Part shown: positions 1 through 18,469 of the stretch, one piece after another
Layout of the letters: the number at the start of each line of letters is the position of its first letter
How positions within the stretch are numbered: position 1 is the stretch's first letter
NCBI RefSeq assembly: GCF_900116515.1
Contig: NZ_FPBA01000004.1
Location: 1-64,000 of the forward strand
Direction: 5' to 3'
DNA from: Geodermatophilus amargosae
Lineage (GTDB): Bacteria; Actinomycetota; Actinomycetes; Mycobacteriales; Geodermatophilaceae
DNA: 64,000 nt
Notes under the pieces: model-generated
Told to the model about the DNA's origin: nothing
What the model saw: only the letters and a program-made list of their open reading frames with translations
Database searches by the model: none
Program-made: the position numbers and the translations under genes

Positions 1-293
1 GCCTCCTACCAGGTGCGGGACTACACCGCCTGGTATCGGCACATCACCCTGGCAATGCTCGCCCACGCCTATCTGAGTGCCACCCGCGCCAGCGCGGAAA
101 AGGGGGGTCTGCAGCCGCAACCGAGCAGCTCATCGCGCTGACCGTGCCCGAGCTCCGCCGCCTGCTCAACACCCTCATCCATACACCGCGGCCCGACCTC
201 GACCACACCGCCGACTGGTCCTGGTGGCGCCGACGACGCCAGGCCCAGGCCCGCGCCGCCCACTACCGAGCCCGCGGACAGGCACCGCCATAA
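1..293 (+). pseudogene. IS701-family transposase, C-terminal part, frameshifted
   Basis: This is the C-terminal end of a DDE transposase; the gene begins left of the window. Frame 1 reads [20 protein letters not shown], typical of the end of IS701-family transposases, and stops at 139-141. The rest of the family C-terminus ([17 protein letters not shown], then an Arg-rich tail) continues in frame 3 to TAA at 291-293. One base is therefore missing, or a -1 shift occurs, near the A4G6 run at 98-107. That run also fits a -1 slippery heptamer (A AAG GGG at 99-105), so programmed frameshifting cannot be excluded. A dead copy is the simpler reading. Confidence 0.75.
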
Positions 294-311
294 CTGCCGT
301 TGCAGTACTAG
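291..311. mobile_element. Right end of the IS701-family element with CTAG target site
   Basis: The transposase stop codon lies inside the likely terminal inverted repeat, 291-307 (TAACTGCCGTTGCAGTA), followed by CTAG at 308-311. IS701-family elements are known to duplicate 4-bp YTAR targets, and CTAG fits. The left end is outside the window, so the repeat partner cannot be checked here. Exact end position is inference. Confidence 0.5.
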
Positions 312-852
312 CCGTGCACCCGGCGTACTGGCCGCAGTCGGTCCACAGTTCTCCGCCGCCTAACGGCTCGGCATCCGGCATCGGGTCGCCGCTGCGGGCG
401 GTCAGCATGATGAGCACGTCCAGCTGCGGACTGGCGGTCGCCCCCTGTGAGCTCCAGGTTCCCCAGCAGCCGATCGACGGGTTGTTCCCCGTGCCCAGGT
501 CGACCCCGGCGACCTGCCCGAGCGCGTTGGTCAAGTCGGGGGTCAGGCCCCCGGCCCACGTTCCCCAGGGCGGCAGGGTGACCGCGGCGGGCGCGGTCCG
601 CTCGACGCTTGCGGCGTCGAGCAGCGGACAGGTCGCGAAGTCCAGCCCCTGCCCGGCAGCGGCGCGTTCGCCGATGGTCTCGAGCAGCTGCTGCGCCGGC
701 CCGGTGTCGAACCGCTCATCGTCGGTGTCGTCGCCGGCGCCGGCGGACGCGCCACAGCCGGTCAGCACCACCCCAGCGGCGGCCGCGGCGACCATGGACC
801 GCTGCGCGCCGCGGCGGAGGTTTCGGCCCGACCCGAAGCGCTGGGAGAACAC
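308..852 (-). pseudogene. Secreted lipoprotein, 3' end cut off by the insertion sequence
   Basis: A lipoprotein signal is visible: an Arg-rich n-region (RNLRRGAQR), a hydrophobic Ala/Val stretch and the lipobox LTGC, followed by a low-complexity Gly/Asp/Thr linker. The mature part has paired Cys residues (TCPLLDAASVE, SIGCWGTW, WTDCGQYAGC) and resembles DUF3558-type actinobacterial lipoproteins, but only loosely. The reading frame runs straight into the IS701-type end at about 308, so the native C-terminus is lost. The start is uncertain: GTG at 852 gives a normal signal peptide, ATG at 795 leaves almost no n-region, and ATG at 903 is also open. Confidence 0.5.
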
Positions 853-7790: not shown

Positions 7791-9121
7791 GTCGGTGGTA
7801 TCGGCGGATCACCCAGATGAGTGAACAAAACTGCGGAAGATTTGCTCTGCACATCTGTCTCAGCCGATCTGCTGCAACCACCGGCGAGTCAGGCGGCATG
7901 CTTTCGATCTGCTTCTCGCCCTGTCGGGGGAGTGGGGCCACGCAGGCGGAGGGCGGTTCGACACGACGCAGCGACCCTCACCGACAACCAATCTATGTGC
8001 ACATGACGGATGTCCCGGTGCAGACGCGCAGCGGCGGGCTCCGTCGAATCGTCCCGCTTGCGGACGAATCGCTACCGGGCATGGTCAGCCGGTAAACCGG
8101 CGTCCCGGACGGCGCATTCGACCGCTGCATGACGCCTCATAGCCTCTCGCCGTTCGGCGCCGGCGAGACCGGTGGCGGCCAGGCTGTCGGCAAGAACATG
8201 GCGCGGAATGCGCCCGCATCGGGCAGGGGACCGGGGTCAATCCGAGGCAGGCTCCGGTCGGACGGGGACGACCGTTCCGGAGCGACGACTTCGCACGAGG
8301 AGCCGTACTCCTCGCCCGTAGCCATCCGCTGCACGTGGCGCACGCTGTGAACGGTGAGCGATTGGTCCTTCACCTCCGCCGCTTGATCGATGCTCCCGTG
8401 CCGTCGACGGCACGTTGATACGACACGAGTACGGGCACCGCGGTCATCCCGTGGCCAAGCGAGACCGACCGCGGACACCTCGCTGAGGACGCCGTCACCC
8501 GGTTAGGCGCGTGAGCGGGCATCGCTGCGCAGATGTGGGATCTATCAGCGGGCCGGCGACCGAGTTCGCCCGTCCAAGCATCACAGACGACCTGTCGGAC
8601 TCGTGTCCGACCATTTCTGCCGTGAGCAAGAAACGCACCTGCTGCGCCTACGATCCGGCGACTCCGGGTGTGCGCAGACGGTACTTGCCTCAAGCGACGG
8701 CCGACCCACTAGACCGTGCCAGAGGCCGAGTGGTCGTACACCTCCCCTGGCGCGGAACGCGGTCCGCGGACGACCGCTACGTCCCGTCGACGACTCGGCA
8801 TGCTTGCGATCGTCGTGCAGCACACCCCGTTTTGCCGGGCCACCGCGGGCCGCGCTTTCGCTATTGGACGGGCTATTGGACGGGTGGACGACCTGTCGGA
8901 CCAAGCAGACATCCTCACCCAGCCGCCGGACAACGACCACAACCAGCCAACGCCGCCATGGATGCCCAACCCGCCGAAGCGAACCTGGACGGATGACCTG
9001 TCGGACTAGTGCAAGACACTGCTTCAGGAACGCACAGAAGAGAAAGCGGCACGAACTCCGGCGGCTATGCGAACGCCGCGGATAGCGCGCTCTCTGCCAT
9101 GTCCCAACGAGAGGAGAAAAC
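7791..9121. other. 1.3-kb stretch with short repeats, no clear gene
   Basis: Open frames here have no recognisable products. It holds three copies of ACCTGTCGGAC (8590-8600, 8891-8901, 8996-9006), a perfect inverted repeat GTCGGAC-TCGT-GTCCGAC at 8594-8611, and a 12-bp tandem duplication (GCTATTGGACGG, 8860-8883). A fourth copy of the 11-mer lies just before the second serine recombinase. In one frame the copies translate as DDLSD, so a degenerate coding repeat is also possible. Confidence 0.45.
8590..9006 (+). repeat. Cluster of three ACCTGTCGGAC motifs
   Basis: Exact 11-mers at 8590-8600, 8891-8901 and 8996-9006. The first and third extend to GACCTGTCGGACTnGTG with one difference. A further exact copy is at 16646-16656 and a 10-mer at 1538-1547. 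All copies I found are inside the accessory region. They may be binding sites for an element-encoded protein. Confidence 0.5.
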
Positions 9122-9289
9122 GTGAACGCCCGGACGAACACCACAACCGTCACCCATCAGACCCAAACTCACAGGCTCATCCGCGCCCCGCCGCGGCGGC
9201 GCTATCCGGCCAGTTCCTCGTCCTCATCACCGAGCGGCCGCAGAAGACCACGAAAGCCGCTCGACCCCCCTGCAAGCGACAACTCATAG
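9122..9289 (+). CDS. Small basic Ser/Arg-rich protein upstream of the endonuclease VII-like gene
   Basis: A 55-aa frame from GTG 9122, preceded by GAGAGGAGAAAAC, one of the best ribosome sites in the accessory region. The product is Thr-rich, then RRR, a Ser run, and RRRPRKP. No family recognised. Its stop TAG (9287-9289) lies within the ribosome site of the next gene (start 9298), so it may be a leader peptide coupling translation, or a nucleic-acid-binding partner. Confidence 0.5.
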   Translation: MNARTNTTTVTHQTQTHRLIRAPPRRRYPASSSSSSPSGRRRPRKPLDPPASDNS

Positions 9290-9297
9290 GAGACACC

Positions 9298-10659
9298 GTG
9301 AACGGCACCCCCAACCCCGACCAGCCCCTGTACCGCGCCGACGCCGCACGCCTGGTGCGCGCCCGCCAGCACGGCACCTGCGCCCTCCCCGGCTGCCACG
9401 AGCCCCTCCCGCAGCAGGACCGGTGGGCCACCGACCCGCAGGGCCGCCTCGCAGGACTGGTCTGCTACGGGCACTCCCTCGCCAGGAAGACCGACCCCCG
9501 CTGGCGCAACCTGTGGGACAACCCGACCACCGGTGGCCTGACCATCCTCCCCGCCGGCGCGCACCGCTGGCGCGGTCCCTGGGCCAAGGGCGCAGCCGAC
9601 CTCACCGCGGACCTGACCACAGACCCCACCTACGACCCGCCGCGCACCTGGTCCTACGCCGGCACCCCGGTCGAGGTGCTCCTGGAGTTGCAGCACCGCC
9701 GCTGCGCCATCTGCCTGCACCCGCTTACCTTCCGCACCGACGCCGACGGATCCGCTGGCGGCGTGCACGTCGACCACTTCGACATCTGGAACCCCTCAGC
9801 GGCGGCCTGGGTCCCCACGATCCGCGGCATCCTCTGTCCGTCCTGCAACACCAACCTGCAGCGCAAGGTCCTCGACGAGCACTGGTGGCAGCCGGTGCTC
9901 GACCGCCGCCAGGCCTACCTGGCCAGCCCGCCCGCGCAGTGCTGGGCGGTCACCCGCGGACTGATCTACGGCCGGAGCCGGACCGGGACCGGACGCGGCA
10001 CCTTCACCCCAGCCGCGATCGCCTCGGTGACCGCGAAGTTGCTCCAGATCGCCGGCAACGACCCGGCCAAGCAGAAGGTGGCCCTCGACCGTCGCTGGTT
10101 CGACTGGTACTACGCTGGCACCTGGGTGCACGCACTGCTCGTCGAGCAGGCTGGACGCTGCGCCATCAGCGGCAAGACCCTCCAGCCGCCGCAGCGCCGC
10201 AACACCCGCAAGACCACCAACGCAGCGACCCTCGACCACGCCGGCCCCGACCGCCGGCGCGGCACCGTCCGCGGACTCATCACACCGGCCTGGAACGCCC
10301 GGCTCCGCGAGGACACCGACATCCAGGCCCTGCCCCCGGAGGCCCAGGTCTACCTCAGCAACCCGCCCGCGCAGCGGTCGTGCTCCGCCCGGAACCTGTG
10401 CTACTCCCAGGCCAGCACCGCATGGCTGCTGCCCGGCGTGCGCCCTCTGCCGACCGGATGGACCACTGCGCAGGTGGCCGCCGCCGTCGCCGCCGGTCGC
10501 GCGGTCACCGCGCGGTGGAGGAGCGACCTCTGGCAGGTCGACCGTGAGTGTCAGCCGACGACCTGCCGGCTCCGCAAGCCCACTACCAAGCGGAGGTCGA
10601 CGTCCCGCCGCCGGCGCCCTCAGCCCCCGCGCGGCGCGGCACCCGGATCGACCGACTGA
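9298..10659 (+). CDS. Protein with three endonuclease VII/HNH-like units
   Basis: A 453-aa protein; GTG 9298 follows TAGGAG with good spacing, while the longer open frame has no such site. The middle unit is a canonical endonuclease VII-type beta-beta-alpha-metal nuclease: C136-x2-C139, D159-H160, IRGILCPSCNTNL with C180, C183 and N184. The third unit (from about 281) keeps C288, D313-H314 and N333 but has lost the other three Cys. Both are followed by YL-x-x-PPAQ, showing internal duplication. The first unit (C28-x4-C33, then LVCYGHS) is a weaker relative without the DH pair. The C-terminus is Arg-rich. Likely a structure-specific or nicking nuclease of a mobile element; the target is unknown. 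A terminator follows. Confidence 0.75.
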   Translation: MNGTPNPDQPLYRADAARLVRARQHGTCALPGCHEPLPQQDRWATDPQGRLAGLVCYGHSLARKTDPRWRNLWDNPTTGGLTILPAGAHRWRGPWAKGAADLTADLTTDPTYDPPRTWSYAGTPVEVLLELQHRRCAICLHPLTFRTDADGSAGGVHVDHFDIWNPSAAAWVPTIRGILCPSCNTNLQRKVLDEHWWQPVLDRRQAYLASPPAQCWAVTRGLIYGRSRTGTGRGTFTPAAIASVTAKLLQIAGNDPAKQKVALDRRWFDWYYAGTWVHALLVEQAGRCAISGKTLQPPQRRNTRKTTNAATLDHAGPDRRRGTVRGLITPAWNARLREDTDIQALPPEAQVYLSNPPAQRSCSARNLCYSQASTAWLLPGVRPLPTGWTTAQVAAAVAAGRAVTARWRSDLWQVDRECQPTTCRLRKPTTKRRSTSRRRRPQPPRGAAPGSTD

Positions 10660-10701: not shown

Positions 10702-10741
10702 CCAAGGGCCTCGCCTGACCACCGTCAGGCGAGGCCCTTGG
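10702..10741. terminator. Strong hairpin terminator
   Basis: A perfect 17-bp stem, CCAAGGGCCTCGCCTGA (10702-10718) paired with 10725-10741, and a 6-base loop, about 40 bases after the nuclease gene. It may also serve the minus-strand gene ending at 10935. Confidence 0.8.
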
Positions 10742-11534: not shown

Positions 11535-11797
11535 AGTCTGTATGCCCGCCCTTCGCCAACCACGCCCGCAGCCCGACAGAAGCCCTGCATCCGTCGCTTC
11601 ATTGCAGGACAGCGCCCAAAGCGCACCTCCCCGGCAATCCCCTCAACGGGACCGGCCGGTCCACCTCGCGCGGAAGGATCGTGCCGACGGACCCCAGTTC
11701 CACCACACCCGAGCCGTTGTATCGCCGCGACCCGCCGTTTGGCCGGCTGGACGTCCGCCTACAACCGGATCCACGCACGGACCTGACGAACGCGGCG

Positions 11798-12168
11798 CTG
11801 GATGGCGCCGTGGCCGCGGTCTCGCTTCGCTCGCCACGCAGCACGAGCGCCGCCCAGCGGCTGGTGGCGTCGCCAGGCGAGGACGCCCATTTCCACCTGC
11901 CTGCACGGGCCGGGACCCAGGAAGGCCGGGGCCCAGCCGCCAGCGCTGCGCCCACCGAAGCCCTACCACTGGCGTCCGTCCGTCCGCCTGCGGCGGTGCT
12001 GGATGGCGCCGTGGCCGCGGTCTCGCTTCGCTCGCCACGCAGCACGAGCGCCGCCCAGCGGCCGGTAGCGTCATGAACCTGGGTGCAGACCGCCCAGCAC
12101 GGACGGTCGAGGCGCCGTGGCCGCGGTCTCGCTTCATCCACCCCGCAGCACGAGCGCCGCCCACCGGC
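11798..12168 (+). repeat. 75-bp direct repeats with 200-bp period
   Basis: Copy 1 at 11798-11872 and copy 2 at 11998-12072 differ at only a few bases; copy 3 at about 12110-12168 is shorter and diverged. The core on the minus strand includes GCGAGCGAAGCGAGACC. A related GAGCGAAGCGAA stretch occurs at about 12705. Confidence 0.75.
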
Positions 12169-12873
12169 CCAACAGCCTTGCGACCGAACGCCGGTCCCAC
12201 TGCGGTGAAGGCCACCAGGCGCCGCGGCTCAACCTCATCCCACGGCCCCAAGACTCGGCGCCGGACACCCTGGCAAGCGCCCGCCCACCGGCGACCGGCC
12301 TCCCAGCACCAGTGCGCATCCACGTCAGGACACGGGGCCACGTCGTCCCACCCGCGGGCCACTTCACCTCGCCGGACGATGACCGACCCGAGACGCACGG
12401 CCACCGATCACCCCGCGGTCCGCATCCCCCTCGACCGAGACCTGCGATCGCCCGTCCGAAGGCGGACGTGCCCGCCGTCATCACTCACAAGCAGTCACCA
12501 TCGACCCGCACACCCGGTCCCACGGAGGCAGCACACCCGAGCAGCACAGGCGGCATTGCCCAGGGAGGGGGAGGGGAGAGGGCGAGGCCGGGGAGCGAAG
12601 GAACGCAAGCCAGACCGGGTGTCCCGGTTCCCCGGGCTCCCGGGAGCGCCCCCGGGTCCTCCGCTCCCAGGCCGTGACGCGGCGACCCCGGGGGAGGGGC
12701 GAGGTGAGCGAAGCGAACCAGCCCCCACCCCCGGGAAGCGCGCGACCGGCCACCCAGCCACCCACGGACGGCGACCGCCCAGGTGGAGCGCTTCCGGTGG
12801 ACCGCACGACCGGACAAGCCATCTCACCACAGCGGCGGCTCCACGCCTGCGCCCTGAGATGACCCTCGGGACC

Positions 12874-13080: not shown

Positions 13081-14280
13081 ATGCCTGACATGGACGTCGA
13101 CGAGTCCGTCTTCGCTGTGCCGAGGCTGGACGACGTGCTCCCGCCTCCCTCAGCAGACGACCGCCTTGGGCAGGACCGCCGCAACCCGGGGGCGCTTCCC
13201 CTCCCGGGGGCAACAGCGCCCCCCCTCCCTCCTCGCCGTGACCAGTTCACTCCGCAGTCAGCACTGGTAGTCCCGGTCGGTCAGCAGTCCGCGTTGCGCA
13301 GGCAGACGACCACAGGGCGGGTGCGACTACAGGCCCGGGACGTCGAGGTCGTCTGCTGGCTGGCTCGGGTCCGGTATGCGACGACTCCCCAGATGATGCG
13401 TCGGCTGTGGCCGGCGCAGGCGATGCCCACTCGGCAGGCCGCGGCCCGGCTGCTCGGTCGGCTCAGGACGCTTGGGCTGGTGGAGATGCAGCAGGTGCTG
13501 AAGGGGGTGCACGTCTACCAGCCGACCCGGCAGGGATACGAGATGGCTGAGAGCGCGGGGGTCGTCACCAAGTACCTACCGCGGCCATCACCGGGGACAC
13601 TGGAACACACATTGTCGCTCAACGACCTCCTCATCTCGTGGGAGATGGGGGAGGGTTGGTTGCCGGACGGCTTTCCCCGGCCGGTCACCGTGGTGACCGA
13701 GCGCGAGATCACGGCCGCAGACAAGGCGCCGGCGACGAATCAGCCCAGTGGCGTGGGACTTCAGTGGTCCGCCAAAGGAAACCTCAAGGCTTCCGCGCGC
13801 GACGAACCGGTCCACGGCTATCTCGACGTCCACGGCAGACGGCGTTATCCGGACGCCCTGATCCTTCCTGTCGGCTGGGAACGCGGCATGTCTGTCCGCG
13901 GCGCGATCGCCGTGGAATACGAGCGTTCTGAGAAGGAAGCACCTGATTACCGCGTGCTGATGAGGGGATACCGGCGGGCCACAATCCGTGGCAAATACGC
14001 CCATGTCCTCTACATCAGCCCGCGGGACGCTCTGCTCAACAAGGTGGCACAGGCCGCCGAGGACGTGAACGCGCCCCCGGGCATGCTGCAGATCCTGCGG
14101 GCGCCAGAGGCGCTGTGGGGTGAGCAACCGCAACGCACCACCCCCGGACAACTCGACCGCGACGGCTCGTGCGCCTCCGTCGTACAGCGGCTGAGTGGAC
14201 TCCCGAAGGACCATCTGATCGCCTATCTCGTTGCTCGCGGTCTCGCCGACGATGCCCTTGAGGACCTCACCGCGACCTGA
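13081..14280 (+). CDS. Replication-relaxation family protein
   Basis: A 399-aa protein from ATG 13081. After a Pro-rich linker of about 80 residues, it has the winged-helix entry typical of Replic_Relax proteins of actinobacterial plasmids and integrative elements: VRLQARDVEVVCWLARVRYA, TTPQMMRRLW, RLLGRLRTLGLVEMQ. The later part (PDALILPVGWERG, AIAVEYERSEK, YRVLMRGYRR) has the D-x-E-x-E spacing of a nuclease-like core also seen in this family. These proteins are thought to act in plasmid replication or nicking. No ordinary coupled partner is present; palindromes lie upstream. Confidence 0.75.
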   Translation: MPDMDVDESVFAVPRLDDVLPPPSADDRLGQDRRNPGALPLPGATAPPLPPRRDQFTPQSALVVPVGQQSALRRQTTTGRVRLQARDVEVVCWLARVRYATTPQMMRRLWPAQAMPTRQAAARLLGRLRTLGLVEMQQVLKGVHVYQPTRQGYEMAESAGVVTKYLPRPSPGTLEHTLSLNDLLISWEMGEGWLPDGFPRPVTVVTEREITAADKAPATNQPSGVGLQWSAKGNLKASARDEPVHGYLDVHGRRRYPDALILPVGWERGMSVRGAIAVEYERSEKEAPDYRVLMRGYRRATIRGKYAHVLYISPRDALLNKVAQAAEDVNAPPGMLQILRAPEALWGEQPQRTTPGQLDRDGSCASVVQRLSGLPKDHLIAYLVARGLADDALEDLTAT

Positions 14281-14689: not shown

Positions 14690-14869
14690 ATGCAAGAGCG
14701 CGTGAAGAAGCCACTCACCTTTCAATCCAGGGATCACATCACGTTGATCCTGCCGCAGGACGCGCCCCTCCTCACTGCTGAGGCTGCTCGCATCCTCCTC
14801 GACATCCTGAAGACCTCTGCCCCGGACGCCAGCCCTAAGTGCAGCGATGACCTACAGGAGGCGTCATGA
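14690..14869 (+). CDS. Small protein coupled to serine recombinase 1
   Basis: A 59-aa frame from ATG. The central part, ITLILPQDAPLLTAEAARIL, followed by LDILK, is of the type found in short genes directly upstream of large serine recombinases in actinobacterial elements. Its TGA overlaps the recombinase ATG (ATGA at 14866-14869), so the two are translationally coupled. It may act as a recombination directionality factor or simply as a leader; function not known from the sequence. Confidence 0.6.
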   Translation: MQERVKKPLTFQSRDHITLILPQDAPLLTAEAARILLDILKTSAPDASPKCSDDLQEAS

Positions 14870-16536
14870 CTGCGTCCACCTCGCGGGCCGAGTCCGCGAT
14901 ATCGCTGGGCGGGGACGGCCTGTCCTTCGCCTTCTACGGGCGCTGCTCAACGGAGGACATGCAGGATCCGAGGCTCAGTCGAGACTGGCAACTCCGCCTG
15001 GCGGAGCGGACCATCGTCGGTCAGGGAAGCGTCGTCACCGAGTTCTTCGACATCGGACTGAGCCGCTCGCTTCCGTGGCAGCGCCGTCCGCAGGCGAGTC
15101 GACTGCTGCAGGAGATGGCAAACCCCGAACGTGCCTTCGATGCCGTCGTCATCGGCGAACCGCAGCGAGCCTTCTTCGGGAACCAGTTCGGCAACACCTG
15201 GCCGTTGTTCGAGCACCATGGCGTCGCACTGTGGCTGCCTGAGATGGGGGGAGCCTTCAACCCCCGGTCTGAGGCCCACGACCTCATGATGAACGTCTTC
15301 GGCGGCCTCTCCAAAGCCGAACGACAGAGGGTGCGGACGCGAGTGGCGGCGGCGATGGAGGCGGCAACCGTCGAACAGGGACGCTTCTTGGGCGGTCGCC
15401 CACCATATGGCCACCGCCTCGTCGCGAACGGGCGTCACCCCAATCCGCACAAGGCCGCGCAGGGACTACGCCTCCACACCCTGGCACTCGACCCGATCGC
15501 AGCCGCAGTGGTGACCCGGATCTTCGACCTCTACCTCGACGGCACGGGGCTACGCACCATCGCCTCGAGACTCAACCTCGAAGGCGTGCCCTGCCCCTCA
15601 GCGCATGACCCGCTCCGCAACACCCACCGCGCACAGGACGGCTGGCAACCAGCGACCATCCGGGCGATCTTGACCAACCGGCGCTACACCGGCTTCGCGG
15701 AATGGGGGAAGGCCGAGAGGGTCGAGCGGTTGCTCGACCCCAACGACGTGGCCGCCGGCAACGTCGTGAAGTTCCGGCGTAGCGATCCCCAGCGCGTCGT
15801 CGTGAGTCGGGAGCCGGCTCATCCCGTGATCGTCAGCGCGGAGATCTTCGAGCAGGTCCAGTCGAGGCTGGGGTCCCAGGGCAACGGCTCCGAGCAGCGG
15901 CAGCGCAGTCCCCGCACCACAGGTACTCCCTACCTGCTGCGCGGGCGCCTCATCTGCGGCACATGTGGTCGCCGCCTGCAAGGCAACACCAACCACGGCA
16001 AGACCTACTACCGGTGCCGGGCGAACGACCAGACGCCGGGCGCCTCGCGCACGGAACACCCCACCACCATCTATCTCCGGGAGTCGGCCCTCGTACCCGC
16101 CCTCGACAACTGGATCACCCAACTCTTCACCCCGGAACGACTCGAGGAGTCGGTCGGCGCGCTCCTGTCGGCGGAAGGCCCTTCCTTGGCCGAGGCCTCG
16201 CAGTCCAGCGTCCTCACCGCCCGCATCGCGGACGGGGAGGCGAGACTCGACCAGTACAAGGAGGCGCTCGGCGCCGGAGCCGAACCTGCCCTGGTGGTGA
16301 AGTGGATCAACGAGGCTCTGCAGGACATCGCGCTCGCCAGGACCGAACTGCAGGAACTGGGCATCGACACCCGCCAGCGACTCACCGCCGACACCATCCG
16401 CGCGATGGTCGAGGACGTGGACGTCGTGCGCCACCGCCTGGCCACCGCCGACCCGGAGAAAAAGGCTGCCCTCTACGAGGCCCTCCACCTGCGCCTCGTC
16501 TACCGCCACGACCACGCCTCCGTGGAACTGCAGTGA
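14866..16536 (+). CDS. Large serine recombinase 1
   Basis: A 556-aa site-specific recombinase. The catalytic N-terminal domain has the nucleophile Ser28 in FYGRCSTEDMQDP, then R residues in LPWQRRPQASRL and the GEPQRAFFG strand. The recombinase domain follows (GRFLGGRPPYGHRL, LRTIASRLNLEGVPCPS, TIRAILTNRRYTG). A zinc ribbon has C364-x2-C367 and YYRC with Cys384, and a coiled coil ends the protein. Length is normal for integrases that catalyse element integration and excision. It starts inside the stop of the 59-aa gene. Strongly similar along its whole length to the next recombinase, so the pair arose by duplication or they act together. Confidence 0.92.
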   Translation: MTASTSRAESAISLGGDGLSFAFYGRCSTEDMQDPRLSRDWQLRLAERTIVGQGSVVTEFFDIGLSRSLPWQRRPQASRLLQEMANPERAFDAVVIGEPQRAFFGNQFGNTWPLFEHHGVALWLPEMGGAFNPRSEAHDLMMNVFGGLSKAERQRVRTRVAAAMEAATVEQGRFLGGRPPYGHRLVANGRHPNPHKAAQGLRLHTLALDPIAAAVVTRIFDLYLDGTGLRTIASRLNLEGVPCPSAHDPLRNTHRAQDGWQPATIRAILTNRRYTGFAEWGKAERVERLLDPNDVAAGNVVKFRRSDPQRVVVSREPAHPVIVSAEIFEQVQSRLGSQGNGSEQRQRSPRTTGTPYLLRGRLICGTCGRRLQGNTNHGKTYYRCRANDQTPGASRTEHPTTIYLRESALVPALDNWITQLFTPERLEESVGALLSAEGPSLAEASQSSVLTARIADGEARLDQYKEALGAGAEPALVVKWINEALQDIALARTELQELGIDTRQRLTADTIRAMVEDVDVVRHRLATADPEKKAALYEALHLRLVYRHDHASVELQ

Positions 16537-16645
16537 CCAGCGACCACGAGCAGCGCAGCAGCAGCGCCTGCTCGCCGACCGCCCGCACGGCTGATGACCG
16601 AACGCTCCACGGCCCGCCGACTGGAGCCGGCTCGGACGGGCGACC

Positions 16646-16656
16646 ACCTGTCGGAC
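16646..16656 (+). repeat. ACCTGTCGGAC motif upstream of serine recombinase 2
   Basis: The fourth exact copy of the motif found three times near 8.6-9.0 kb, here 44 bases before the start of recombinase 2 and in the same orientation. Confidence 0.5.
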
Positions 16657-16699
16657 GTCGACGCGATCATTCCGGTCCCAGACGCCAACAGGAGGTCAG

Positions 16700-18403
16700 A
16701 TGAACCGCAGGTCCAACCCCGGAGGGTCGGAGAACCCACAGCAGCGCTTCGCCTTCTACGGCCGCTGCTCCACCGAGGACCTCCAGGATCCCCAGACCAG
16801 CCTCGGCTGGCAGCGCCGTGCTGCATCACTCCTGACGGAGCCGCACGGCCTGATCGTCGAGGAGTACTTCGACGTGGGCTACAGCCGGTCGCTGCCCTGG
16901 CGGCGCCGCCCGGAAGCGACGCGGCTACTGGAGGCGGTAGCCGACCCTGGCCGCACCTTCGACGCGATCGTCATCGGAGAACCGCAGCGCGCCTTCTACG
17001 GCTCCCAGTTCAGCGACACCTTCCCGGTCCTCCAGCACTTCGGTGTCGACTTGTGGGTACCGGACGTCGGCGGCCGCATCGACCCGGACTCCGACGTCCA
17101 CGAGTTGATGATGACCATCTTCGGCGGCATCTCCAAGGGAGAGCGGCGACGCATCCAGCGGCGAGTCGTCGGCGCCATGGAGGCAGCGACCATCAACCAG
17201 GGCCGCTTCCTCGGTGGCCGGCCGCCCTACGGCTACCGGATCGCCAGCGCCGGACCACACCCCAACCCCAGCAAGGCCGCGGACGGCATCATGCTGCACG
17301 CCCTCGAGGCCGATCCTGCGACCGGACCCGTGGTGCAGAGGATCTTCGACCTGTACCTGTCCGGCGCCGGCCTCCGCGCGGTGGCAGCCCAACTTAACAG
17401 CGACGGCATCCCCTGCCCCTCCGCGCATGACCCCGGCCGCAATACCCACCGGCTGCAGGATGGTTGGCAGCCCTCGGCCGTCCGCGCCATCCTCACCAAT
17501 CCGAGATACCTCGGACACCAGGTCTGGGGCCGCTGGCACCGGGTCGAGCGACTACTCGACCCCAAGGACGTGGCCGCCGGCACCGTGACCGTCTTCCGCC
17601 GCAGCACAGCGGAGCGGGTCGTCACCAGCAACGAGCAGTCCCACGTCCCACTCGTCTCACTCGATGCGTTCACACGCGTCCAGGGACTACTGGACGGCGG
17701 CCCCCGGACCGCGTCCGAGCGACCACGAACGGTGCGAGCCGCCAGCAGCCCCTACCAACTCCGAGGACACCTGCACTGCGGCCTCTGCCGACGCCGGATG
17801 GCCGGCCACCGCAGGGGCTCGACGCTGTACTACCGGTGCCGCGCCGCGGACCTCATCCCGTCCCGCCAGGCCGGTCACCCCAGCACCGTCTACCTACGCG
17901 AAGACACCCTCGTCGAGACCCTGGACCGGTGGCTCGACAGTGTCCTCGGCCCCGACGCCGTGCACGCGACAGTCGAGAACCTCACCGCCAACGGCCACCA
18001 CGCCACGGCCGACGACAGCCGCCGAACAGCCATCGACGGGCGCATCGCCGAGGCACAACAGCGACTCACCCGCTTCAAGGCAGCTTTGGCACAAGGAGCC
18101 GACCCGGCAGTGGTCAGCGCGTGGATCAACGAGGCACAAGCGGACCTCGCCCGCGCTCGAACCGACCTCGGCCTGCTCAACAACGAGATCCCCGCCGAGA
18201 TGACCGCGACCGACCTGAGCAAGGTCGTCGAGGACATGTCTGCCCTGGTCAGCGGCCTGCCGACGGCCCCACCGGTGGCCAAGGCCGCTCTGTACGGCGG
18301 GCTGGCGTTACGCCTGACGTACCACCCGACTAGCGGCGACGTGGACGCTGAGGTGAGCACGGCCAAGGCGTGTGCAAAACGTGGTGTCCGAGGGGGGACT
18401 TGA
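16700..18403 (+). CDS. Large serine recombinase 2, reading into the tRNA gene
   Basis: A 567-aa paralogue of the previous recombinase. Ser24 sits in FYGRCSTEDLQDP; GEPQRAFYG, GRFLGGRPPYGYRI and AILTNPRYLG follow. The zinc ribbon has C360 and C363 and YYRCR, and a coiled coil ends the protein. ATG 16700 follows AGGAGG with good spacing. The last codons (VRGGT) and the stop lie within the 3' part of the tRNA-Leu gene on the other strand. This places the crossover site at the recombinase end and marks the tRNA 3' end as the attachment site. The last residues are thus set by the integration event. Confidence 0.92.
   Translation: MNRRSNPGGSENPQQRFAFYGRCSTEDLQDPQTSLGWQRRAASLLTEPHGLIVEEYFDVGYSRSLPWRRRPEATRLLEAVADPGRTFDAIVIGEPQRAFYGSQFSDTFPVLQHFGVDLWVPDVGGRIDPDSDVHELMMTIFGGISKGERRRIQRRVVGAMEAATINQGRFLGGRPPYGYRIASAGPHPNPSKAADGIMLHALEADPATGPVVQRIFDLYLSGAGLRAVAAQLNSDGIPCPSAHDPGRNTHRLQDGWQPSAVRAILTNPRYLGHQVWGRWHRVERLLDPKDVAAGTVTVFRRSTAERVVTSNEQSHVPLVSLDAFTRVQGLLDGGPRTASERPRTVRAASSPYQLRGHLHCGLCRRRMAGHRRGSTLYYRCRAADLIPSRQAGHPSTVYLREDTLVETLDRWLDSVLGPDAVHATVENLTANGHHATADDSRRTAIDGRIAEAQQRLTRFKAALAQGADPAVVSAWINEAQADLARARTDLGLLNNEIPAEMTATDLSKVVEDMSALVSGLPTAPPVAKAALYGGLALRLTYHPTSGDVDAEVSTAKACAKRGVRGGT
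18385..18403. other. Probable attachment site (tRNA 3' end shared with recombinase 2)
   Basis: The overlap of the recombinase 3' end with the acceptor and T-arm side of the tRNA is the expected layout of one att site. A second copy of this tRNA end was looked for in 1-18384 and not found. Its exact extent is unknown. Confidence 0.5.
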
Positions 18404-18469
18404 ACCCCCACGCCCGATAAAGGGCACTAGCACCTCAAGCTAGCGCGTCTGCCATTCCGCCACCCGGAC
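18385..18469 (-). tRNA. tRNA-Leu (GAG)
   Basis: An 85-nt tRNA with a 7-bp acceptor stem (GTCCGGG with CTCGGAC), D-arm GGCGGAATGGCAGACGC, anticodon stem CTAGC/GCTAG with loop TTGAGGT (anticodon GAG), a long variable arm (TGCCCTTTATCGGGCG) and T-arm GGGGGTTCAAGTCCCCC. The long variable arm and anticodon fit leucine. CCA is not encoded. It marks the border between the element and the core chromosome. Confidence 0.95.

Follow-up and report, generated by a model that had tools for sequence, protein, structure and literature searches.

Why two large serine recombinase genes should stand side by side at the end of a tRNA gene, and what each of them does there, is the question raised by one locus of Geodermatophilus amargosae. 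It lies in the first 64 kb of contig C36 (NZ_FPBA01000004.1) of a 5.87-Mb genome (G000), a stretch of 64,000 nucleotides that is referred to below as the window. A first-pass annotation had placed two such genes at the border of an integrated element, and both open reading frames (ORFs) are indeed intact: rec1 (positions 14866-16536, plus strand, 556 aa) and rec2 (16700-18403, plus strand, 567 aa). As was also claimed there, rec2 ends within the 3' end of a tRNA-Leu gene, of which it covers 22 bases, CCA included. This gene, tRNA-Leu(gag) (18382-18469, minus strand), is the sole tRNA gene that ARAGORN finds in the window, and it serves as attachment gene and as anchor of the cassette array described below. 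The interpretation preferred here, held at a probability of roughly 0.7, is that rec2 is an integrase acting at the 3' end of tRNA-Leu(GAG), that the tandem arose by accretion, and that the tRNA gene is a shared dock.

Both proteins, which are about 52% identical, contain Resolvase, Recombinase, and zinc-ribbon domains above the Pfam cut-offs, and the best PHROG for each is the PHROG 95 integrase (E 3e-55 for rec1 and 4e-56 for rec2). The catalytic residues R22, S24, E148, R149, and R155 (rec2 numbering) are among the invariant columns of 23 aligned sequences, and the RxS motif is kept in rec1 as well as in rec2. The structure model of rec2 (mean pLDDT 82, pTM 0.43) has 20 matches in the PDB at E ≤ 0.001, all of them serine recombinases with serine integrase-att complexes at the top, while a sequence search with rec2 for solved serine integrases gave no match. 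The TM-scores of the model by query length are low (0.16-0.41), because the domains move.

rec2 is a member of an integrase family that uses tRNA-Leu(GAG). Its relatives at E ≤ 1e-60 occur in 48 of 298 genomes of the order, in 62 listed places, two of which are the window's own; 59 of the other 60 were fetched (a fragment in G284 was excluded), and together with rec1, rec2, a Nocardia locus (L053), and a fragment at L099 they make up 63 genes in 59 loci. From this set L054 was dropped as a duplicate of L088, and L072 and L073 were dropped as not being recombinase loci; neighboring fragments less than 300 bp apart were merged, and the piece merged at L059 may be the relic of a second recombinase. 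A tRNA gene is faced within 330 bp by 43 of the 63 recombinase genes, and it is tRNA-Leu(gag) in all 43. Moreover, 32 of the 63, rec2 included, stop at the same base of the attachment core, 31 at the tRNA and one (L074) at a joint between elements, so the overlap between rec2 and the tRNA gene is more than chance. In these 32 genes, the tRNA end, read on its antisense strand, supplies the C-terminal codons VRGGT-stop; L053 and L096 read VRRGT. A second clade (14 tree rows) includes six genes whose ends lie 1-28 bases short of this same tRNA's core. Two plasmid records hold a relative (45-47%), and no rec2 relative at E ≤ 1e-20 was found in 50,697 phage records. Relatives of rec1 at E ≤ 1e-20 are present in 5 of 112 genomes of the bacterial family, the window's genome included, and a scan of named genomes with rec1 gave one locus, in Nocardia pseudovaccinii.

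The shared stop lies in a 15-bp core, GTGTCCGAGGGGGGA (18384-18398, plus strand), that is common to the far ends of related elements. It is preceded by the putative left arm of the rec2 attachment site, GCGTGTGCAAAACGTG (18368-18383, plus strand), whose final two bases are part of the tRNA CCA; the same or almost the same arm is found in G018 and G011. No second exact copy of the core occurs in the window, and the 8 matches at up to three mismatches are below the shuffle mean of 15.5; since the contig begins at base 1 of the window, the far end of the rec2 element lies outside it. Exact cores are present in 47 of 49 genomes tested (reversed-pattern control, 0). Sixteen genomes carry at least two of them on one contig in one orientation; opposite orientations on a shared contig were met in three genomes (G168, G169, and G259), each more than 450 kb away. 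The duplicate of the tRNA end anticipated by the first-pass annotation is seen in relatives, where direct repeats of the core enclose 8.5-69 kb and the recombinase lies next to the tRNA: 8.5 kb in G011, 8.8 kb in G212, 15.3 kb in G161, and 40-69 kb in G220, G230, G248, G298, and G244. In G161 and G169 two elements are joined core to core.

The smallest of these elements, 8.5 kb long in G011, contains a complete Wadjet set (JetA-D) and a truncated recombinase, and its two ends suggest how the site is arranged. The left arm is GCGTGTGCGAAACGTG and the right arm, reversed, is GCGTGTGCGGAAGTATC; the two are inverted copies, with GCGTGTGCG on the left and CGCACACGC on the right. It follows that attP would straddle the integrase gene's 3' end and that the stop codon of the integrated form would be tRNA sequence. 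In the mechanism proposed here, rec2 would integrate an element using the 3' end of tRNA-Leu(GAG) as attB. The attP of the circle would lie across the 3' end of rec2, with an arm GCGTGTGC..., the 15-bp core copying the tRNA 3' end, and a second, inverted arm. An exchange inside the core would leave the tRNA intact and place the TGA of the tRNA behind rec2, and the stop codon of the integrated integrase would hence be host DNA.

In the free circle, the rec2 frame would be longer by 11-18 codons. This extension beyond VRGG(T) is predicted for nine related elements and for one unlinked candidate in the window's genome. All 10 frames stop 16-23 residues from the V, as compared with 32% of random starts that stop at ≤23 and 10% within 15-23, in a statistic that includes five closely related rows (two of them identical) as well as the unlinked candidate, with a range chosen after the data had been seen.

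For the far end of the rec2 element itself, the window's genome offers four further exact cores, all on other contigs. The best left-end candidate by sequence is C23:53987, which fits the serine type and is unlinked. C61:10567 and C64:419033 were rejected, as both have by sequence a tyrosine-type right end on their left; a tyrosine integrase is present at the C64 site, and none of that kind was found within the initial 20 kb of C61. The left-end type that follows is the one with 22 shared bases for C61 and another one for C64. An IS-like repeat at the starts of the window contig and of C61 probably broke the assembly. By eye, nearly the same reading frame opens both contigs (window 1-350 and C61:1-390).

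If rec2 alone can be understood in this way, what is rec1 doing next to it? Having two recombinases had suggested a division of labor or heteromeric action. This proposal was not supported: an intact side-by-side pair occurs at one of the 59 loci, that of the window, the two proteins are not sisters, and rec1 has neither the tail nor an att site. The tandem is not a trait of the integrase family. Elsewhere, a whole gene is immediately preceded by a recombinase fragment at L059, such a fragment lies 3.5 kb upstream at L099, and L088 and L112 each carry two recombinases 10-14 kb apart, as in stacked elements. In the tree, from which rows shorter than 380 aa (that of G011 included) were left out, rec2 and the single gene of G018 form a group that is joined next by the genes of G169 and G318, and rec1 falls outside, at starred forks; each of these three genomes has one match. 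A recent duplication giving rise to rec1 and rec2 is rejected on this topology. A search for an att core in the rec1-rec2 interval and in the rest of the window gave nothing beyond chance. The end of rec1 is 1.85 kb from the tRNA; the gene stops where its relatives continue into the att arm, and it lacks the tRNA-encoded VRGGT tail. Accretion of two elements followed by loss of the att end of rec1 would best fit these features. On this proposal, rec1 and its small partner gene would have come with another element of the same family, as its integrase module; that second element would have accreted at the tRNA and lost its own att end, and the pair would be a by-product of accretion and not a two-subunit machine.

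That rec1 and rec2 nevertheless form a working pair, as a heteromer or with integration and excision split between them, has precedents in CcrA/CcrB of SCC and DsiA/DsiB of Dehalococcoides. Both genes are intact, 163 bp apart, and oriented in one direction, and RNA-gene islands with serine recombinase pairs have been described (PMC3146451). The idea appears improbable, however, given that the intact pair is restricted to one of the 59 loci, that rec1 and rec2 are non-sisters and the nearest relatives of rec2 are single genes, and that the two are similar in size and domains, unlike the large DsiB and small DsiA. The CcrC and CcrB models score 24.3, 33.4, and 16 bits with the recombinases, far below the cut-off of 900, and the conserved serine recombinase pair by which the Ccr and DsiAB systems are recognized was not found.

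The small gene before rec1 (14690-14869, plus strand, 59 aa) belongs to a small-protein family without a name that occurs upstream of tRNA-Leu serine integrases. As first described, it overlaps rec1; the overlap is ATGA, and a ribosome site is located inside the small gene. A profile of the family, seeded with 20 of its matches, finds a member immediately before 33 of 61 integrase starts at E ≤ 0.01 (32 of 60 without L054, counted here beside L088), making the gene a conserved integrase partner. Among the other ORFs of those loci the same profile gave no match at E ≤ 0.01 (6,081 ORFs in all) and 4 elsewhere at E ≤ 1. The 28 misses include rec2, the 14 second-clade genes, L098 and L105-L108, which have a similar ORF that failed the threshold, and L076, whose similar ORF exceeds the length limit. 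A first regular expression had already matched at 20 of 61 integrase starts, compared with 9 of 1,260 random places. The shared motif is V..P..PP.L.P.AA..LL..L.

Direct searches with the 59-aa protein gave no match in Pfam, PHROGs, or NCBIfam, where five of its relatives gave two matches, both below cut-off, and none outside the window's genome among 112 genomes of the bacterial family at E ≤ 0.01; hence the small-protein family is visible by profile only. The profile matched no chain in the PDB. The predicted structure (mean pLDDT 73, pTM 0.37) has one helix, residues 30-43. Judging from gene position and conservation, it is possible that the protein is a directionality factor, and it stands as a candidate for that role, as the first-pass annotation had put it. 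In the window, rec1 has a small partner gene and rec2 is without one. By eye, a short frame before rec2 (16594-16699) reads ...DAIIPVPDAN... and is perhaps the remnant of a partner gene.

A different explanation regards rec1 as a decaying relic and the 59-aa gene as its relic partner, neither with a current role. The absence of the tail and of the att site from rec1 would agree with this, as would the rec2 relatives of G018 and G011, in the same genus, which are without the N-terminal part and look broken. On the other hand, the rec1 frame is full-length with its invariant residues kept, and the ribosome site and the ATGA coupling are preserved as well; decay is regarded as a less likely alternative.

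While the left att end was being traced, a 33-bp att-like repeat was met, GTGTCCGAGGGG(C/G)GACACGCTACATACGCACAC, which extends the question from one element to an array. At up to three mismatches it occurs in 51 of 108 genomes of the bacterial family, with zero control matches, and in the class in 3 of 394 genomes, two of which are from the same family; exact matches are absent from IMG/VR. Among the matches listed, 38 of 38 repeats in 17 genomes lie downstream of the tRNA in one orientation, a count made by hand over genomes with tRNA and repeats on one contig, thus excluding the window's genome (different contigs) and those in which the tRNA was not located. The window's genome has 10 repeats among the matches listed, on one strand, on contigs C23 and C65. 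In the stretches read, 77 repeat-bounded intervals have a median length of 3.8 kb; 27 are shorter than 2.6 kb, and one measures just 63 bp.

These cassettes contain toxin-antitoxin systems, Wadjet, and enzymes. Ten proteins from small cassettes were scanned and eight of them matched, namely VapB (below cut-off) with PIN, Phd with ParE twice, and HTH with Gp49; the remaining two had no match. By eye, recombinase fragments occur in 2 of the 27 small intervals. Among the larger cassettes, those of G349 and G011 carry Wadjet; two different complete JetA-D sets (L132:2882-10007 and L193:3663-10522) lie in elements at this tRNA in two genomes. A VapBC-like cassette of 780-805 bp is present in G185, G320, G325, and G349 (protein identity 84-92%). 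G318 and G307, members of different genera, share a 4.5-kb cassette at 99.1% identity; the match starts 3 bases ahead of the left core and finishes where the right core does. The flanks of this cassette (up to 3 kb) show no match of at least 120 bases outside the cassette, and its neighbor is the tRNA in G307 and another cassette in G318. A third copy, in G320, is 89% identical, with its right end at the core and its left end 17 bases outside the core. A 25.7-kb interval on C23 shares 20 genes with an interval of G215, the DNA match ending 2.6 and 1.7 kb inside the borders. Since cassette identity ends at the cores, at least some borders are exchange points. The tRNA would then be a dock shared by autonomous elements and by non-autonomous cassettes with the same kind of ends, which would accumulate behind it in one orientation.

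Is it the serine enzyme, a tyrosine enzyme, or both that mobilize the cassettes? The sequences make a link between the serine integrase and the repeats likely, as the right arm of the repeat is the mirror of the integrase arm. An arm profile built from 31 non-redundant of 45 serine-integrase left arms, with the own family excluded, matches the right repeat arms in 82 of 87 cases at p < 0.01 and in 61 at p < 0.001, although the 87 arms are copies of one motif and these matches are therefore not independent. By eye, G011, G161, and the group of G212, G220, G230, G244, and G248 share ACACG at one and the same spacing to the core, and G169 and G298 do not.

A tyrosine integrase family (L135:4877-6076, L147, L073, and L115) was noticed at the same tRNA and core, its genes stopping some 100 bp away from the core, behind the conserved hairpin ccccgggctcctgacctgcaggaacaccggggc. 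Such an enzyme might move both elements and cassettes, with the serine genes as passengers of one element type. Its relatives at E ≤ 1e-110 are present in 27 of 104 genomes of the bacterial family, about 100 bp from the core at tRNA or array sites, as compared with serine relatives (rec1/rec2) in only 5 of 112. The core GTGTC-CGAGGGGC-GACAC is an inverted repeat whose size would be right for a tyrosine recombinase. In G005 and in the window's genome (C23:62465 to 86177), the nearest site left of the intact tyrosine integrase is an array-type repeat, and some cassettes contain remnants of this integrase. Against this, the serine gene itself has its end in the tRNA, at the same base, in other families of the order; the different left end with 22 shared bases is found on the tyrosine elements of G009, G018, and G169 (at 111 kb); and G007 and G014 bear repeats with neither a PF07508 gene nor this tyrosine integrase at the cut-offs used. 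Tyrosine mobilization of the whole system is considered a minority possibility; for the two-armed sites, the serine reading is slightly ahead. In a separate observation made by eye, the left-end type with 22 shared bases (L074, L115, L121, L189, and C61:10567) is followed by sequence resembling a decayed tRNA-Leu.

Several observations weigh against rec2 as a docking integrase with an accreted neighbor. No tRNA is faced in the fetched stretch by 20 of the 63 genes, which comprise eight second-clade members, four located at core-to-core joints (one of these degenerate), L076 and L082, whose frames run past the tRNA, and six with neither tRNA nor joint, rec1 among them. At L074, L087, and L088 the end of the recombinase meets the core and then another element. 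That rec1 is intact is not required by accretion alone. The left arm of rec2 reaches only p 0.18 against the arm profile of other families, probably reflecting its position one base closer to the core. For the rec2 element, the far end is unlinked, the contig starting inside an IS-like repeat, and the assignment of C23:53987 is unsure because the core at 86177 and a tyrosine integrase precede any rec2-type end on that contig. Against the serine integrase as mover of the cassettes, the left arms of the repeats go unrecognized by the arm profile (3 of 87 at p < 0.001), and no PF07508 gene at E ≤ 1e-5 is listed for five genomes that bear the repeat (G005, G006, G007, G014, and G036).

The border near 18.4 kb is also visible in base composition, the G+C content per 1000 bases being 0.64-0.74 on its left and 0.69-0.80 on its right. 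The lower-GC region encodes a Spherulin4-family protein (Pfam PF12138; 3887-4846), an Endonuclease VII domain protein (9067-10659, plus strand), and, upstream of the integrase module, a protein with sub-cut-off matches to the MobC family and to replication-relaxation proteins (13081-14280, plus strand). A perfect 18-bp inverted repeat with a 4-bp loop (10702-10741) lies behind the Endonuclease VII gene, and an 80-bp repeat occurs in three direct copies at 11792-12178, the second and third 96% and 69% identical to the first. A promoter and terminator scan found none and is uninformative.

How does this locus compare with known systems? The first-pass annotation had treated tRNA sites as mostly the domain of tyrosine integrases. 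Serine integrases at a tRNA-Leu end are indeed seen here, but their rarity has to be tempered: Ghinet et al. (2011, PMC3218068) call the use of tRNA genes by serine integrases rare and describe eight serine recombinases of Mycobacterium AICEs (actinomycete integrative and conjugative elements) in one tRNA-Leu gene. What is shared is a serine recombinase integrating into one tRNA-Leu gene in actinobacteria, and the passages on those elements make no mention of a tandem pair, a coupled small gene, a tRNA-supplied stop, or cassette arrays. An AICE combines int with replication and FtsK-type transfer genes; rep and tra are not shown in the window, where the AICE-type genes amount to the weak MobC/Replic_Relax matches among the part of the element's ORFs that was scanned, in an element cut by the contig start.

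Islands at ssrA in Dehalococcoides (McMurdie et al. 2011, PMC3146451) likewise stand in tandem behind an RNA gene whose 3' end recurs in direct repeats, and they have serine recombinases; islands lacking the integration module are read as cis-mobilizable. They differ in using the ssrA tmRNA, a 20-bp repeat, and a six-gene module. In the present system the cassettes are small, with one or two genes, and nearly identical ones occur in two genera; the site measures 33 bp and has inverted arms, and tyrosine integrases use the same core. Cis-mobilizable elements (CIMEs) and tandem accretion, a term taken from the same paper (PMC3146451), are alike in that integrase-less elements between att sites are mobilized with their neighbors; the array differs in the number of sites per genome and in its family-wide spread. 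Already known are serine integrases at tRNA-Leu (PMC3218068) and tandem serine-recombinase islands behind an RNA gene (PMC3146451). For the cassette array, the tRNA-supplied stop as a family rule, and the coupled small-protein family, no prior report was found in the literature searched, subscription papers and preprints being outside it.

The array also calls integrons to mind. Integrons are rows of small cassettes rich in toxin-antitoxin genes, set in one orientation between recombination sites and served by an integrase in trans. Small toxin-antitoxin-rich cassettes in rows, one orientation, and recombination-site borders recur here. The anchor is a tRNA gene, unlike in integrons, and many cassettes are 2-30 kb long; neither intI nor attC-like sites were noticed by eye in the gene lists of four arrays, no model search having been made. 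It may be speculated, with due reserve, that the system is a serine-integrase counterpart of integrons, in which tRNA-Leu(GAG) would be the dock, the sites would be two-armed and 33-50 bp long, and transient serine integrases (rec2, perhaps rec1 with the 59-aa protein) would load and shuffle cassettes in trans across the bacterial family; docking would cut off the circle-only tail of 11-18 residues, so that the integrase would read its own state. One integrase, a small partner, and a tRNA make this a compact system for the use of tRNA genes by serine integrases, and a large natural set of att sites and cassettes is indicated. If the cassettes are substrates of serine integrases, then integron-like capture would have evolved with a second, mechanistically different class of enzymes and with a tRNA gene as its platform.

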